A stretch of 21,596 nucleotides of DNA from a virus: the IMG/VR virus record IMGVR_UViG_3300027759_000485, positions 1 through 21,596 of that record. One strand, 5' to 3'. The notes beneath the pieces are model-generated. The model did no database searches, was not told where the DNA came from, and was given only the letters and a program-made list of their open reading frames with translations. Shown in pieces: positions 5,271-19,826 of this stretch (its first letter is position 1; each line of letters begins with the position of its first letter). The translations under genes and the position numbers were made by a program.

Positions 5271-7046
5271 ATGGCTAAACCAAGAAAAAAACCTGTCAAG
5301 ACAGAAAAACAACCTCAAAACAATCAACACGCAAGTGTTAAAAAACAACAATTTCATGTTGAGTTTTTGAATGCTGCTCAAAAATTAGCTTGGTCGGCAT
5401 TTGACCAACATGATATTTTGTTTTTATTGGGTGCAGCAGGCACGGGGAAAGCTTTAACATTAAATTCAAAGCTTTATACTCGTAGTGGATATATTTTGAT
5501 GAGAGATGTAAAGGTTGGCGACGAAATTGCTAATCCAGATGGTAATTTTTCTAAAGTGACAGGTGTTTTTCCTCAAGGTAAAAAGCAAGTATGTCGTGTT
5601 TATTTTAGCGATGATACCTATGTCGATTGCTGTGAGGAACACTTATGGACGATTTCTCATACTAAAAATAAAGGCTGGAAAAATCAGGTCAAGACAACTG
5701 CATATATTGAAAAAAATTACTTAAGAAGTGATGGGCACAGATCATTTTCTGTTATGGCTACTAAACCATTAAATTTCGACAGGCAAAAATTTTTGATAAA
5801 TCCTTATTTAATGGGTATTTTTATTGCCGAAGGAAGTTTGACCAATTCAAATGTATGTTTTAGTTCTTGTGAATCGGAAGTTGTTTCAAGGATTACTAGT
5901 TCACTTTGCGAAGATTATGTTTGTAAATCAAAAACAAAATTTAATACAGAAGCTGCTGATCATCGTATTGTAAAGAAGAAAAGGAGTGGTTGTAAAAATA
6001 TTTATAAAGAGGTATTAAAAGATTTAGGTCTTTGGGGCAAAAAATCTTACGAAAAGTTTATTCCTCGTGATTATCAGTATTGTGCTGTGGATCAAAGAAT
6101 TGCTTTGCTCCAAGGACTTATGGATGGTGATGGCACAGTAGAAAAAAGAACAGGTTCTTGCAGTTATACCACAACATCTTATCAACTGGCTCAAGATTTT
6201 TGTCAACTAGTATATTCTTTGGGCGGATCGACTAGAATAAAAGTAAAAAAAGGCGCTTCTAAATCTGACGGTACTCGCCATAGAATTTCCTATAGATGTT
6301 ATGTTAATCTTCCTCAAGAAATTGAAATTTTTTTCTTACAAAGAAAAAAAAGATTGTTAAAATCAAGAACAAAATATTTCCCAAAAAGATATATTGACCG
6401 TGTAGAAAGATTGAATTATGAAGAAATGCAATGCATTACTGTTGATCATAAAGATTCATTGTTTTTGACCGACAATTTTACTGTGACTCATAATTCGCAC
6501 CTCGGTTGCGCTTTTGCAATTAGTGAAGTTTTAGCAAAAAGAAAAGAAAAAATTGTTATCACAAGACCAACTATTGAAGCTGGGGGAAGAGGTCTTGGGT
6601 TCCTTCCCGGCGATGCCGATGCTAAATTAACTCCTTATATGCTTCCTCTTTTTGATTGCATGGATATGTGTTTGGGAACATTTTCCCCTCAGCGTGAAGC
6701 AATTGCGAAGAGCGTGGAAATTGCACCTTTACAGTTCATGAGAGGCAGAACATTTCATAATTCTGTTTGCATTCTTGATGAAGCTCAGAACTGTAATTAT
6801 GGCGAAATTAAATTATTTTTGACAAGATTCGGAAAGAACAGCAAAGTAATTATCACAGGCGACCCTCTGCAAAGCGACTTGCCTTGGAAAGATAGAGCTT
6901 TGATGAATGTTGTTGAAAAGTTGTCTGGTCTTAAGGGTGTTGGTGTCATTCAATTCAAACCTAGTTCAATTGTTCGCCATCCATTGATTGCTGGTATTCT
7001 TGAAAGGTTGGAAGATAAGGAGGAGAATGGCTCTAGTAGTACCTGA
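5271..7046 (+). CDS. phoH: PhoH-like P-loop ATPase precursor interrupted by an intein
   Basis: The 591-aa precursor is PhoH (exteins, 243 aa after splicing) plus a 348-aa intein. The N-extein (residues 1-60) is a Lys/Gln-rich lead and FLLGAAGTGK, the Walker A glycine loop; the C-extein begins with Ser409, restoring GKS. Downstream PhoH marks are ITRPTIEAG (430-438), GFLPGD (443-448), Walker B VCILDEAQN (499-507) and VIITGDPLQSDL (526-537). PhoH proteins are cytosolic ATPases with RNA-helicase/ribonuclease links, common in marine and T4-like phages; their phage role is unsettled. A functional ATP site needs intein removal. The gene overlaps the next start by 20 bases. Confidence 0.95.
   Translation: MAKPRKKPVKTEKQPQNNQHASVKKQQFHVEFLNAAQKLAWSAFDQHDILFLLGAAGTGKALTLNSKLYTRSGYILMRDVKVGDEIANPDGNFSKVTGVFPQGKKQVCRVYFSDDTYVDCCEEHLWTISHTKNKGWKNQVKTTAYIEKNYLRSDGHRSFSVMATKPLNFDRQKFLINPYLMGIFIAEGSLTNSNVCFSSCESEVVSRITSSLCEDYVCKSKTKFNTEAADHRIVKKKRSGCKNIYKEVLKDLGLWGKKSYEKFIPRDYQYCAVDQRIALLQGLMDGDGTVEKRTGSCSYTTTSYQLAQDFCQLVYSLGGSTRIKVKKGASKSDGTRHRISYRCYVNLPQEIEIFFLQRKKRLLKSRTKYFPKRYIDRVERLNYEEMQCITVDHKDSLFLTDNFTVTHNSHLGCAFAISEVLAKRKEKIVITRPTIEAGGRGLGFLPGDADAKLTPYMLPLFDCMDMCLGTFSPQREAIAKSVEIAPLQFMRGRTFHNSVCILDEAQNCNYGEIKLFLTRFGKNSKVIITGDPLQSDLPWKDRALMNVVEKLSGLKGVGVIQFKPSSIVRHPLIAGILERLEDKEENGSSST
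5451..6494 (+). other. class 3 intein with LAGLIDADG homing endonuclease, inserted in PhoH Walker A
   Basis: The intein is residues 61-408 of the precursor. It starts with Ala, not Cys/Ser/Thr, and ends THN before Ser(+1). Block B reads CCEEHLWTIS, with H124 at B:10 and W126 at B:12; block F reads MQCITVD, with C388 at F:4 where class 1 inteins usually have Asp; block G reads TVTHN with T406 at G:5. Trp-Cys-Thr is the diagnostic triplet of class 3 inteins, which use the block F Cys as first nucleophile. The endonuclease core shows two LAGLIDADG-type helices, YLMGIFIAEGSL (179-190) and LLQGLMDGDGTV (279-290), both with the acidic residue, then YQLAQDFCQLVYSLGG (304-319). No disruption is seen. 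Confidence 0.9.
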
Positions 7047-9271: not shown

Positions 9272-10273
9272 ATGGAAACACTCAAAATTAAGTATGTCAA
9301 TTTTTCTAGCATGAGGAGATTCGGCGTTGAAATAGAAGTTGGCCATGAAGTGAAGAAGAAAGATGTTCACTTGGCAATAAAGTCTTCTTCTCAACACGAT
9401 GTCTATACAAGCCGATATGGATTGTCGAGCAATAACAGGTATTGGCATGTAAAAGATGATGCTACTTGTGGAATCAAGGGAAGAAAAGGCCCCAAGGGTG
9501 TCGAGATAGCTTCTTTTGTAGGACACGGAAATCAAGACATCGATCATATTTCGCAAATTGCTGGAATTCTTTCTCAAATAGGATGCAAAACGAATGATAA
9601 TTGCGGTCTTCACATTCATGCCGAGGCTGTTGATTTTACGATAGAGCAATGCAGTATATTGGTTGCTTACTGGGTTAAGATAGAAAAAATTCTCAGTATG
9701 GCTTTGCCAATTAGAAGAAATAGAAGCGAATATTGCAAATTCACTTTTCCTCATGATGCTTCTTTTGATTTCAAATTGTGCAGAGAGACAAAATATTCAG
9801 CCGATTTGTTTTGGCAAATAATTTCTCCCAAGAATTTGGGTTTTTTTGATAATGAAGACAGAAGGTTCAATTTGAATCTTGTTAATTTTGTTCGATCAAT
9901 TAGAGATCAGAATTTACATAGAAAAACAATTGAGCTTAGATGGCCTGAAGGTTCTCTTGATCCAATAGACATTAGTTGTTGGACTAGGTTGTTTTTGTCA
10001 TTTGTTGAAAATTGCAAGTTTATGATCATGCCAAATAATTTGGAGGATCTTTCTTTGCAGCAAACATTATGTTGTTTTGGTCTTGAAAATTTACAATCAT
10101 TTACGATTTTCAGTAGGAATATGCATGAAACTAAGACTTGGTTTCTTGAAAGGATAATCAAGCATGAATCGGATTCTGTTGAATTTTACAATGATGAAAA
10201 AATTCGCAATACGGTAATAGAAGCTAAAGAAATACTGAATAAAATGTGGTCGCCCTTGAGGAGATATGCTTGA
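9272..10273 (+). CDS. putative amidoligase (COOH-NH2 ligase, glutamine-synthetase-like fold)
   Basis: The 333-aa protein shows the amidoligase family pattern: FGVEIEV (residues 17-23) at the start, WHVKDDATCG (58-67), GVEIAS (76-81), the central CGLHIHAEA (111-119), LPIRRNRSEYC (146-155) and KTIELRWPEGSLDP in the second half. The acidic residues, the H-x-H and the late E-x-R match the ATP/metal-binding arrangement of the glutamine-synthetase-like fold. These enzymes join a carboxylate to an amine using ATP and are linked to peptide tagging, cell-wall or small-peptide modification; phages carry them with unknown substrates. The ATG at 9272 follows AGGTG inside a hairpin; an ATG at 9311 (MRRFGVEIEV) is an alternative start. 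Confidence 0.85.
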   Translation: METLKIKYVNFSSMRRFGVEIEVGHEVKKKDVHLAIKSSSQHDVYTSRYGLSSNNRYWHVKDDATCGIKGRKGPKGVEIASFVGHGNQDIDHISQIAGILSQIGCKTNDNCGLHIHAEAVDFTIEQCSILVAYWVKIEKILSMALPIRRNRSEYCKFTFPHDASFDFKLCRETKYSADLFWQIISPKNLGFFDNEDRRFNLNLVNFVRSIRDQNLHRKTIELRWPEGSLDPIDISCWTRLFLSFVENCKFMIMPNNLEDLSLQQTLCCFGLENLQSFTIFSRNMHETKTWFLERIIKHESDSVEFYNDEKIRNTVIEAKEILNKMWSPLRRYA

Positions 10274-10366: not shown

Positions 10367-10909
10367 ATGACTAAACATGAAATTAACGAACTTATTGTTC
10401 GTCACATTGATTTCTCTGAAAAAATAGCGAGATTGAATTGTAAAAAATATCCCGCAATAAGTTTTGACGAGCTTGTTTCTGCTGCTTACATGGGACTTGT
10501 AATTGCAGCAAATAAGTACAAATTAAATAGAAAAACTAAATTTACTACTTATGCATATTTGAAAATTAATTTTTCTATCAGGATTTACGCCAAAGAAAAC
10601 TATCCTTCTAGATCTAGAGTGAAGCCTTTTTTACACGAACAAATAGACAGATCGATGATGGAAAGTATTCCTTGTAAAAATAAAAATTCAGATGAAAGCG
10701 AGATAGTCGAGGCTTTGACTCAGGGCTTGAATCAAAAAGAAAAAGAGATTTTTCTGGATTACTATCTTAATGGCAAAAGACTATCAGAAATAGCTGTCGA
10801 AAAAATGGTTGATAAATCAAGGATATCTCGAATATTTGAGGATATAAATAAAAAGCTTGCATTAAAATGGGAATACAGGAAATTTGAATTATATTCTATG
10901 ATATCCTAA
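10367..10909 (+). CDS. sigma70-family RNA polymerase sigma factor, gp55-like role
   Basis: A compact 180-aa sigma factor with region 2 and region 4 only. Region 2 spans about residues 32-78: SFDELVSAAYMGLVIAANKY is the core-binding/helix segment and KFTTYAYLKINFSIRIY the -10 recognition part. Residues 121-165 form a region-4-like helix-turn-helix: LNQKEKEIFLDYYLNGKRLSEIAV, then DKSRISRIFEDINKKL. AAGGA precedes the ATG by a few bases, and a clear host-type promoter lies upstream. By analogy with T4 gp55 it may direct RNA polymerase to TATAAATA late promoters, two of which lie in intergenic DNA here; that pairing is inference. T4 gp55 has a weak region 4, while this one looks more canonical. 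Confidence 0.85.
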   Translation: MTKHEINELIVRHIDFSEKIARLNCKKYPAISFDELVSAAYMGLVIAANKYKLNRKTKFTTYAYLKINFSIRIYAKENYPSRSRVKPFLHEQIDRSMMESIPCKNKNSDESEIVEALTQGLNQKEKEIFLDYYLNGKRLSEIAVEKMVDKSRISRIFEDINKKLALKWEYRKFELYSMIS

Positions 10910-16822: not shown

Positions 16823-17551
16823 GTGGAAAATCAGGAAGAAGTTTTAGCACAAGTTAAATTAAACCATGCCAATCCTCTTGCCAATAAAAACATTGGCGAT
16901 ACTCCAATCAATTGGGATAGTAGTTCAGGTGATCCAACTGCTGTTGCAAATGCAGAATTTGATGGAACCAACTTCACAGCTTATTTTGAAAATAATCTAG
17001 TAGGAGTTTTTTTAACAGAAGCAACAAGTGATACAAAGGGAAGTATTTATTGGGACAAAACATTTGACTATACGAGAAATATACATTTTAGTGGCGTTAT
17101 TTCTGCTGGCAATGGAGATGGAGCAGACGGCATAACTGTATTTTTTGGTTGTGATAATTCATTGACTTCAAGAGATAATGCTACAAATGGAATAGCTATT
17201 TATTTCTCTGAATATGAAGGTAATATCGTGCAAATTTTTTGGGACGGTAATCAAATTTTTGATGTTTACGAAGATTTGGGAACAGGAGATTTCAATACAA
17301 ATTTTTCTTTAGATGATTTAACATGGAGACAATTTGATATTATTTATCAATATGTTGATATCACAAACTCTTATGTTACTGTTCTACTAAATGGCGTTTT
17401 CATTTGTCGTGTCAGAGTGGATGGCGAATGGGTCGAAAACGCTGGATCTATCGTTGGAATTAGTGGCTGGTGTGGTGCCAGCAATAATGATCATTGTTGC
17501 AAAAAGTTTCAGGCGAAAAGTGCAAATCCTTGGCTTTTGATTAATGGGTAA
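16823..17551 (+). CDS. L-type-lectin-like protein 1
   Basis: 242 aa starting at GTG, behind a strong GAGGAG. One concanavalin-A-like domain: NHANPLANKNIGDTPINWD (residues 14-32), GSIYWDKTFDY (73-83), the L-type lectin hallmark ADGITVFFG (101-109), an IAIYFSEYEGN strand, a VTVLLNGVF strand, and IVGISGWCGAS near the end, closing with ANPWLLING. In legume and bacterial lectins the corresponding Asp/Gly block supports metal and sugar binding. No signal peptide. It is the first of three tandem paralogues (16823-19826) sharing the ANPL...GD...W...DPT start and the NPWL end. Probably glycan-binding; virion location is likely but unproven. Confidence 0.78.
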   Translation: MENQEEVLAQVKLNHANPLANKNIGDTPINWDSSSGDPTAVANAEFDGTNFTAYFENNLVGVFLTEATSDTKGSIYWDKTFDYTRNIHFSGVISAGNGDGADGITVFFGCDNSLTSRDNATNGIAIYFSEYEGNIVQIFWDGNQIFDVYEDLGTGDFNTNFSLDDLTWRQFDIIYQYVDITNSYVTVLLNGVFICRVRVDGEWVENAGSIVGISGWCGASNNDHCCKKFQAKSANPWLLING

Positions 17552-17565
17552 AGAAAGAGGTAAAA

Positions 17566-18948
17566 ATGCAAAACAATAGCGGACCAAAAAAATCTAGAAA
17601 TCCACTACAACCAGAAGCTCTTGGTGATTCTCCAATAGTTTGGAACAGTGGAATGGGTGATCCAACTTTACTTGGAGCCAATCTTAATGGAAATGCGAGT
17701 TTCGTTGATGCAGATAAAGGAGTTATACTTTCTACTGATTCAGATGGAAGTTCAGGAAGTTTGTATTGGCAAAATAATTTTGATTATGCAAATGATCTCT
17801 ACATTAAGATGACCATCCATGCTGACCATATTTCTGGAAGTGGTGGACTTGGATGGACTTTGTTTTTAGGTTCTGATACAAATTATACATTTATAAATGA
17901 CGAAACAGGTTCAATAAATGTGTTTTTTGACGATGGTTTTTATGGTAATCCTTTTACCGATGCTCTTAGTTTGTGGGTTGATGGAACGAAAGTAGGAGGA
18001 GAAGGGTCAAATTATTATGTGGCTGATCCTCTTGATAATTCAGTTTCAAAAAATGTTGAGGTTTTATTCCAACACGATAAATCTGATTTTAATTACATAA
18101 CAGTTTTTATAGATGGTAAATATATTTGCAAAGCAAATGTAGGGACATGGACACCCGGCGGCAACTTTATTGGAGTAAGTGCTGCAAGCTCAGTTAGTTC
18201 AGAATATGTCAACAACCATTACATAAAATCCATGGAAGTAAGAAGCATAGTTCCATGGATAAATGTCAATTATCCAAAAATTCCAAAGAAAAATGATAAA
18301 ATTTTTATTCTCATCAATGACACTTATGTTGATTATGTTGCTGAGGGATCTGACTTTGGAAATGAACCAAACAATATTATGGCTTACTTAGATGCTAATA
18401 CCATCGCTTATGAAACATTTATAGACATATCAGAGTCTGGATGGGACAATATATTTGTTTTAGGAAAAGCTGGTTATGTTATGATTTCTGACATTGAAAA
18501 TGATGATATTCTTCCAGATTTGACTTCAGGCGCTAAAAATAAAATCAACAATTTTGTTTCTTCTGGTGGTAAGTTGTTGATGTTTAACCCCTCAAATGGA
18601 GATGTGGTTCCTTTCTTGAACGATATATTTAGCTTTAGTATTACTGGTGGTGGAGAGGGTGGACCTTCTGAGCCAATAAGCCTCACAGTTGATGGTTCTG
18701 GTCTTTTCCCAAGTGAAAGTGCTACTATTCCCAATTTAGATGCTACTAGTTCTTTAGACACTACTAGTTTGCCAGTAAATTCTGTAACAATTTACGAGGA
18801 AAATGGTGCGAATGAATCTGTAGTAACCATGATTCCATATGGTTCTGGGAAAATATATGTTCTTGGCTGGGATTGGTATGATGCTGCGCCGATAGGTGCA
18901 GAAGATGGTGGTTGGCTACATTTGCTTGAGTCTATTTTGCAATCTTGA
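17566..18948 (+). CDS. L-type-lectin-like protein 2 fused to an amidotransferase-like domain
   Basis: 460 aa in two parts. Residues ~11-235 are the lectin-like domain shared with both neighbours (NPLQPEALGDSPIVWN, GSLYWQNNFDY, LGWTLFLGSD, YITVFIDGKYICKA, IGVSAAS, VPWINVN). Residues ~245-460 form an alpha/beta domain like class I glutamine-amidotransferase or DUF4350/ThuA-type folds: KIFILINDTYVDYV, WDNIFVLGKAGYVMI, INNFVSSGGKLLMFNP, and YGSGKIYVLGWDWYD near the end. No catalytic Cys in the nucleophile-elbow position, so probably a non-catalytic or different-activity member. AAGAGGT precedes the ATG. The next gene starts 8 bases after the stop. The combination in a phage is unusual. Confidence 0.75.
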   Translation: MQNNSGPKKSRNPLQPEALGDSPIVWNSGMGDPTLLGANLNGNASFVDADKGVILSTDSDGSSGSLYWQNNFDYANDLYIKMTIHADHISGSGGLGWTLFLGSDTNYTFINDETGSINVFFDDGFYGNPFTDALSLWVDGTKVGGEGSNYYVADPLDNSVSKNVEVLFQHDKSDFNYITVFIDGKYICKANVGTWTPGGNFIGVSAASSVSSEYVNNHYIKSMEVRSIVPWINVNYPKIPKKNDKIFILINDTYVDYVAEGSDFGNEPNNIMAYLDANTIAYETFIDISESGWDNIFVLGKAGYVMISDIENDDILPDLTSGAKNKINNFVSSGGKLLMFNPSNGDVVPFLNDIFSFSITGGGEGGPSEPISLTVDGSGLFPSESATIPNLDATSSLDTTSLPVNSVTIYEENGANESVVTMIPYGSGKIYVLGWDWYDAAPIGAEDGGWLHLLESILQS

Positions 18949-18956
18949 GGAGTGAA

Positions 18957-19826
18957 ATGTTAAATCTTGATGTATCAACGGATAAATTTGCAGATTTGAA
19001 AAAACTTTTCAACAATGCTAATGTTCATTATCGAATATTTGGCACAAGCTCTGATGGTTTGACTACCACTTTGAAATTCAACAAAAAAGTTGATTTTGAA
19101 AAAGCCAAAGAAATAATCGATGGAAAAGTAGTTGCCCAAGGTAATCTTATTCATGCAAATCCACTAGGTAGTATAAACATTGGAGATAATCACATCGATT
19201 GGCTTGGAGATATGGGTAGCCCCACTTTGTTTGGTGGCACTGTGAATGGAGATGCTTCATATTTAGGCGATATTTCTGGTCCCCAAAAAAGGAATTTCGT
19301 ATATCTTACTCCAGATTCAAATAATCAGTTAGGCAGTATTGCTTGGGAAAAAAATTATAATTATTCTAAAAATATTTTAGTTAAGGCAACAACATACAGT
19401 GGCGGCGATAGCGGAGATGGAATAACATTCTTTTTTGGGTCCGATTCAGAGAATCATAGTGGTTCTGATGACAATGGAGCCCTTGCTGTTTACATTGATG
19501 AATTAAATGACAGTACAATTAAAGTTTATATTGAAGGATCTTTACAAACTACATTTTATACAAACCAAAATTTGGATTATGAAAGAGCAACGAGTTGGAT
19601 TTTTTTGATAAATTGGGAGTATGATTTTGCAGGCGACTTAAAAGGTTATTTGTCAGTTTACATCAACAATTCATTTCAATTGAAAATTGATATCACTTCT
19701 TGGGCACAAGAAGGTGGACCATACATTGGCGTTTCTGCTAAAACATCAGCAGGCACAAACAACAGGCATCTGATAAGTCAATTTCAAGTTATGGGCGCTA
19801 ATCCATGGCTTGCTATCAACAAGTAA
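18957..19826 (+). CDS. L-type-lectin-like protein 3 with N-terminal extension
   Basis: The ATG at 18957, 4 bases after GAGGAG, gives 289 aa. Residues 1-~60 form an extra small alpha/beta segment (LDVSTDKFADLKKLFNN, LTTTLKFNKKVDFEKAKEII) absent from the two paralogues. The lectin-like domain follows: LIHANPLGSINIGDNHIDW (64-82), GSIAWEKNYNY (126-136), DGITFFFG (154-161), LSVYINNSF, YIGVSAKTSAG and a GANPWLAINK end. No signal peptide. It is the last gene of the cassette and is followed by an intrinsic terminator. The extension looks like an interaction or capping domain; that is a guess from its position. Confidence 0.77.
   Translation: MLNLDVSTDKFADLKKLFNNANVHYRIFGTSSDGLTTTLKFNKKVDFEKAKEIIDGKVVAQGNLIHANPLGSINIGDNHIDWLGDMGSPTLFGGTVNGDASYLGDISGPQKRNFVYLTPDSNNQLGSIAWEKNYNYSKNILVKATTYSGGDSGDGITFFFGSDSENHSGSDDNGALAVYIDELNDSTIKVYIEGSLQTTFYTNQNLDYERATSWIFLINWEYDFAGDLKGYLSVYINNSFQLKIDITSWAQEGGPYIGVSAKTSAGTNNRHLISQFQVMGANPWLAINK

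Follow-up and report, generated by a model that had tools for sequence, protein, structure and literature searches.

Class 3 inteins in PhoH proteins have been published for Mycobacterium fortuitum (OBK00716) and M. xenopi (EID13626) (PMC6195587), and a PhoH intein has likewise been published for M. smegmatis (PMC7360933). These mycobacterial elements match the intein analyzed here in class and host protein, but their hosts are bacterial, whereas ours belongs to a phage; it interrupts the Walker A motif of PhoH at GK^S (the caret marking the insertion point). The P-loop position between Lys and Thr/Ser has been termed a 'classic' intein insertion site, and the mycobacteriophage TerL1-a intein is likewise found at the P-loop Lys/Thr of a phage ATPase (PMC5050341); there the interrupted protein is a terminase, as opposed to a PhoH with Ser at +1 in our case. 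M. smegmatis DnaBi1 (6bs8) and M. chimaera DnaB1 (6rix, 6riy) share the WCT triplet, Ala1 and the terminal THN with our intein, but lack the endonuclease that ours carries. The clear Walker A PhoH intein that turned up in annotated phage records is that of Vibrio phage 1.161.O (NVP1161O_150, MG592529), a class 3 intein that is 38% identical to ours and interrupts a PhoH protein (PF02562) at GK^T; this protein differs in its PIN-PhoH architecture and in having Thr instead of Ser at +1, and is annotated only as 'hedgehog/hint domain protein'. In the literature searched, no paper on a Walker A intein of PhoH was found, with key papers lying outside that search. The element described here is a class 3 homing intein of known kind, located at the classic P-loop site. 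The 'PhoH' of Caudovirales GX15bay (L014, MK557849.1, QBQ74860.1) was considered as a published phage PhoH intein and rejected, as Pfam finds no PhoH domain in it; a class 3-like intein is present in QBQ74860.1, the 'PhoH' label of which is an apparent misannotation.

The window, i.e. the whole stretch of 21,596 bases of an IMG/VR virus record that was analyzed, carries on its plus strand, as for all features of this gene given below, a phoH gene (5271–7046) encoding an intein-bearing precursor of 591 amino acids, from which residues are numbered unless stated otherwise. The product shows the PhoH family features, namely a PF02562 match (7.5e-54), Walker A GAAGTGK/S and the sequence LDEAQN. 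The N-extein (5271–5450, residues 1–60) ends in the N-terminal part of Walker A, GAAGTGK (5430–5450, residues 54–60), and is followed by an insert of 348 codons in a stop-free frame (5451–6494) and by the C-extein with the rest of PhoH (6495–7043), the first residue of which, Ser409 (6495–6497), is the Walker A serine; the +1 nucleophile of the predicted splicing reaction would thus be the P-loop residue itself. Since the PF02562 match is split into two parts on either side of the insert, covering profile positions 2–34 before and 32–202 after it and meeting at residues 60/409, the insert interrupts the PhoH domain itself, at GTGK^S. Its GC content is 32%, compared with 39% for the exteins. 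A preliminary description had already located K60, A61, H124, W126, C388, T406-H407-N408 and S409 at exactly these positions and had placed the insertion at GK^S of the PhoH Walker A motif, and sequence and structure comparison back this placement. An assembly chimera could be ruled out, as contigs from three other IMG datasets (L003, L004, L005) have the intein at 99.9–100% identity.

The insert begins with a non-nucleophilic residue, Ala1 (A61; block A, 5451–5453), and contains a block B His-Leu-Trp with H124 and W126 (5640–5648), Cys388 in block F (F:4; 6432–6434), which is the predicted first splicing nucleophile, and Thr406-His407-Asn408 in block G (6486–6494), such that the intein ends in His-Asn with Ser at +1. 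When its Hint part, with the endonuclease omitted, was aligned with M. smegmatis DnaBi1 (6bs8), the first class 3 structure, the alignment ran from the first to the last residue and paired A1/A1, H64/H65, W66/W67, C328/C118, T346/T137, H347/H138 and N348/N139 (intein numbering; A61, H124, W126, C388, T406, H407 and N408 of the precursor). As W67, C118 and T137 form the WCT triplet of 6bs8 (PMC6195587), W126, C388 and T406 correspond to B:12, F:4 and G:5. The preliminary description had staked its class 3 assignment beforehand on these three positions, and together with the non-nucleophilic Ala61 they bear it out in sequence as well as structure comparison. All seven residues are invariant in 67/67 viral sequences (the window's intein and 66 relatives), where the constancy of the block B His and Trp is partly selected because HLW formed part of the search pattern for relatives, whereas A1, C328, T346, H347 and N348 did not. 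The relatives have Lys at −1 throughout, and Thr (60) or Ser (6) at +1. The insert furthermore matches the terminase-intein family phrog_19299 (6e-39 over 2–348), and this match and the constancy in the viral set argue against a chance residue pattern. At the TxxH/DxxH position of block B, the window's intein and 62/67 viral sequences overall have Cys (intein C61), whereas M. smegmatis DnaBi1 has Asp (PMC6195587); the active site is hence not identical to that of the best-studied class 3 case. The insert is a real and well-preserved intein and falls into the rarer class 3.

The 348-residue insert also contains a LAGLIDADG_3 domain (PF14528, 1.3e-13) with two motifs, LMGIFIAEG (5808–5834, acid E187) and LQGLMDGDG (6108–6134, acid D287), whose acidic positions are D/E in 67/67 and D in 66/67 viral sequences, respectively. 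An AlphaFold (AF2) model of the intein, built from 66 viral sequences, shows a Hint domain and a LAGLIDADG endonuclease (pLDDT 95.1, pTM 0.92). With Foldseek, its best full-length PDB match is PI-SceI (1ef0; Hint plus endonuclease, E 1.6e-17), and its Hint part matches the class 3 structures 6riy, 6rix and 6bs8 (E ~1e-5). The model of the full precursor was poor and, with a pLDDT of only 76, says little about the unspliced P-loop; we therefore dropped it as proof of a broken ATP-binding site.

We consider it very probable that the phage PhoH ATPase is interrupted between the Walker A Lys and Ser by a mobile, endonuclease-bearing class 3 intein, that splicing restores GAAGTGKS and thereby enables ATP binding, and that the predicted LAGLIDADG enzyme homes into intein-free phoH genes. 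If the splicing chemistry of the class 3 literature (PMC6195587, PMC7664689) is applied, the precursor would be translated as a single chain, and Cys388 would attack the Lys60-Ala61 peptide bond to form the branched thioester at block F. The N-extein would then be transferred to Ser409, Asn408 would cyclize with the help of His407, and an O–N shift would link Lys60 to Ser409, yielding a PhoH able to bind ATP. As 348 residues separate Lys60 from Ser409 before splicing, the ATP-binding loop should be absent at that stage; going by this anatomy, unspliced PhoH probably cannot bind ATP, and it is reasonable to assume a full dependence of the PhoH ATPase on splicing. For the endonuclease, the predicted cutting site is the P-loop codons of phoH genes without an intein, where repair would copy the intein in.

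The case for mobility draws on an empty allele and on horizontal spread. A near-identical phage (L016), with flanks 99.5–99.6% identical to the window over 1416 and 2054 bp, has an uninterrupted phoH from which the intein is missing to the base, the DNA being joined exactly at AAA^TCG. One base differs between its phoH and the N-extein without affecting the protein, and its PhoH is 100% identical to the window's predicted spliced product; further related phages have an uninterrupted phoH as well. Conversely, a 172-kb contig (L006) with a more divergent PhoH carries a related intein that is 87% identical in DNA, versus 74.5% for the C-extein, and the synonymous difference to the window amounts to 0.39 in the intein versus 0.70 in the C-extein (Fisher p 1.2e-7). 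With a third contig (L013), the final 84 nt of the intein are identical (84/84) while the adjoining C-extein is 81.6% identical. Taken together, these three comparisons show that the intein has moved among phages over a shorter time span than that of the host gene; it has been mobile recently. A dN/dS of 0.13 relative to L006 (intein 0.12, Hint part about 0.11, C-extein 0.07) shows purifying selection on the endonuclease. The window and L016 constitute a clean occupied/empty allele pair for homing tests. As a side observation, an extra gene of ~1 kb encoding Gly/Asp-rich repeats lies just upstream of phoH in the intein-free L016 (1468–2418, minus strand) and L018 (1453–2406, minus strand), and is lacking in the window (at about 5243).

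The intein might also be kept as a conditional switch, such that a signal, e.g. oxidation of cysteines near the active site (C120-C121 by the block B His, or the nucleophile C388), restrains splicing and thus PhoH activity. M. smegmatis DnaBi1, itself of class 3, is redox-controlled via a Cys48-Cys118 disulfide (PMC6195587), and, in addition to the widely shared block B Cys, C120 and C121 hardly vary among PhoH precursors. Yet the same block B Cys also occurs in inteins that interrupt many other P-loop proteins and is therefore not tied to PhoH; moreover, a near-identical phage lives without the intein, phoH is uninterrupted in related phages, and the intein, its endonuclease apparently intact, passes from phage to phage, all of which would be expected of a selfish element. 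A switch function thus seems unlikely to us, and the empty allele in particular favors a purely selfish element over one that also serves regulation. Even less probable, to a degree that makes it hard to credit, is a degenerate intein that retained the class 3 signatures but lost splicing, and with it PhoH in this phage. Inteins with residual motifs can indeed be dead, as reported for the Arthrobacter pseudogene Arth_1007 (PMC3196547), but here the frame is open, the catalytic residues are all present, the low dN/dS values relative to L006 hold for intein and C-extein alike, and the PhoH protein is the same as that of the intein-free allele. Least credible of all is that the intein belongs to class 1 or class 2 and only resembles class 3: the Hint fold is common to all classes and class 2 also lacks the first nucleophile (PMC7664689), but the entire WCT triplet aligns with 6bs8 and is invariant in the family along with Ala1.

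The suggestion in the preliminary description that PhoH is a less usual host did not hold up, in view of the published mycobacterial cases and of our own counts. PhoH exteins flank 29 of the 85 viral class 3 inteins collected, a set that comprises those closest to the window's intein, with near copies counted. Most of these viral PhoH inteins are inserted at GK^S/T and two (L078, L081) at LPG^T, and two phage PhoH precursors (L034, 230–3001; L052, 2153–5236) contain two class 3 inteins each, at GK^T and LPG^T; the second intein in both precursors has Pro as its first residue. Among 198 sampled Actinomycetes genomes, 15 encode a PhoH interrupted by an intein with class 3 features, in all cases at RGR^T, well after Walker A, with the site determined by full reading in 13 and by the profile boundary in two, that of Streptomyces cinnamoneus being placed by profile boundary. 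Class 3 inteins thus occur often in phage PhoH; three insertion sites are in use, and some precursors contain two inteins. A scan of bacterial genome contigs for PhoH inteins returned mainly Streptomyces and MAGs. One MAG contig labelled Neisseriaceae (L110, RXKI01000004.1), which may be of phage origin and have been binned with the MAG, has a 991-aa ORF for a PhoH that is interrupted at both GK^S and RGR^T; the latter intein starts with Ser despite its HLW, block F Cys and THN.

In the intein tree, the window's intein falls into a supported clade of seven PhoH Walker A inteins (97/96), and the 13 aligned Actinomycetes PhoH inteins form one clade apart from it. The Walker A PhoH inteins require 11 label changes, at least 3 of them forced by well-supported branches; as the deep branches are poorly supported and the bootstrap had not settled, repeated separate entry into PhoH at Walker A is likely but not proven. 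Other GK^T hosts among the relatives are T4-type terminase, a RecD2-like helicase, DnaB, an SNF2 helicase and Lon protease. We tentatively propose, as a possibility rather than the favored expectation, that the viral inteins of this set specialize in Walker A and jump among such unrelated P-loop proteins, PhoH included, as GK[S/T] would provide a +1 Ser/Thr along with a similar DNA target; this would account for several separate entries into PhoH. The Lon protease is encoded by a viral contig (L092, 1388–4864) and has its class 3 intein at Walker A (GVGK^T).

The insertion also touches upon the standard forward primer of phage phoH surveys, vPhoHf (TGCRGGWACAGGTAARACAT; PMC4476143), which reads A-G-T-G-K-T and spans the intein junction. 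Since the intein splits off the last four bases of its target, surveys with vPhoHf probably miss intein-bearing phoH genes, to judge from the primer sequence. Many such genes mismatch vPhoHf elsewhere too, so the intein would be one of several reasons for their being missed.

Elsewhere in the window, an Amidoligase_2 enzyme (PF12224, 7e-18) is encoded at 9272–10273, followed by a sigma-factor-like gene (10367–10909). Three adjacent ORFs (16823–17551, 17566–18948 and 18945–19826) are similar in sequence, and the first and third show weak matches to L-type lectin domains.
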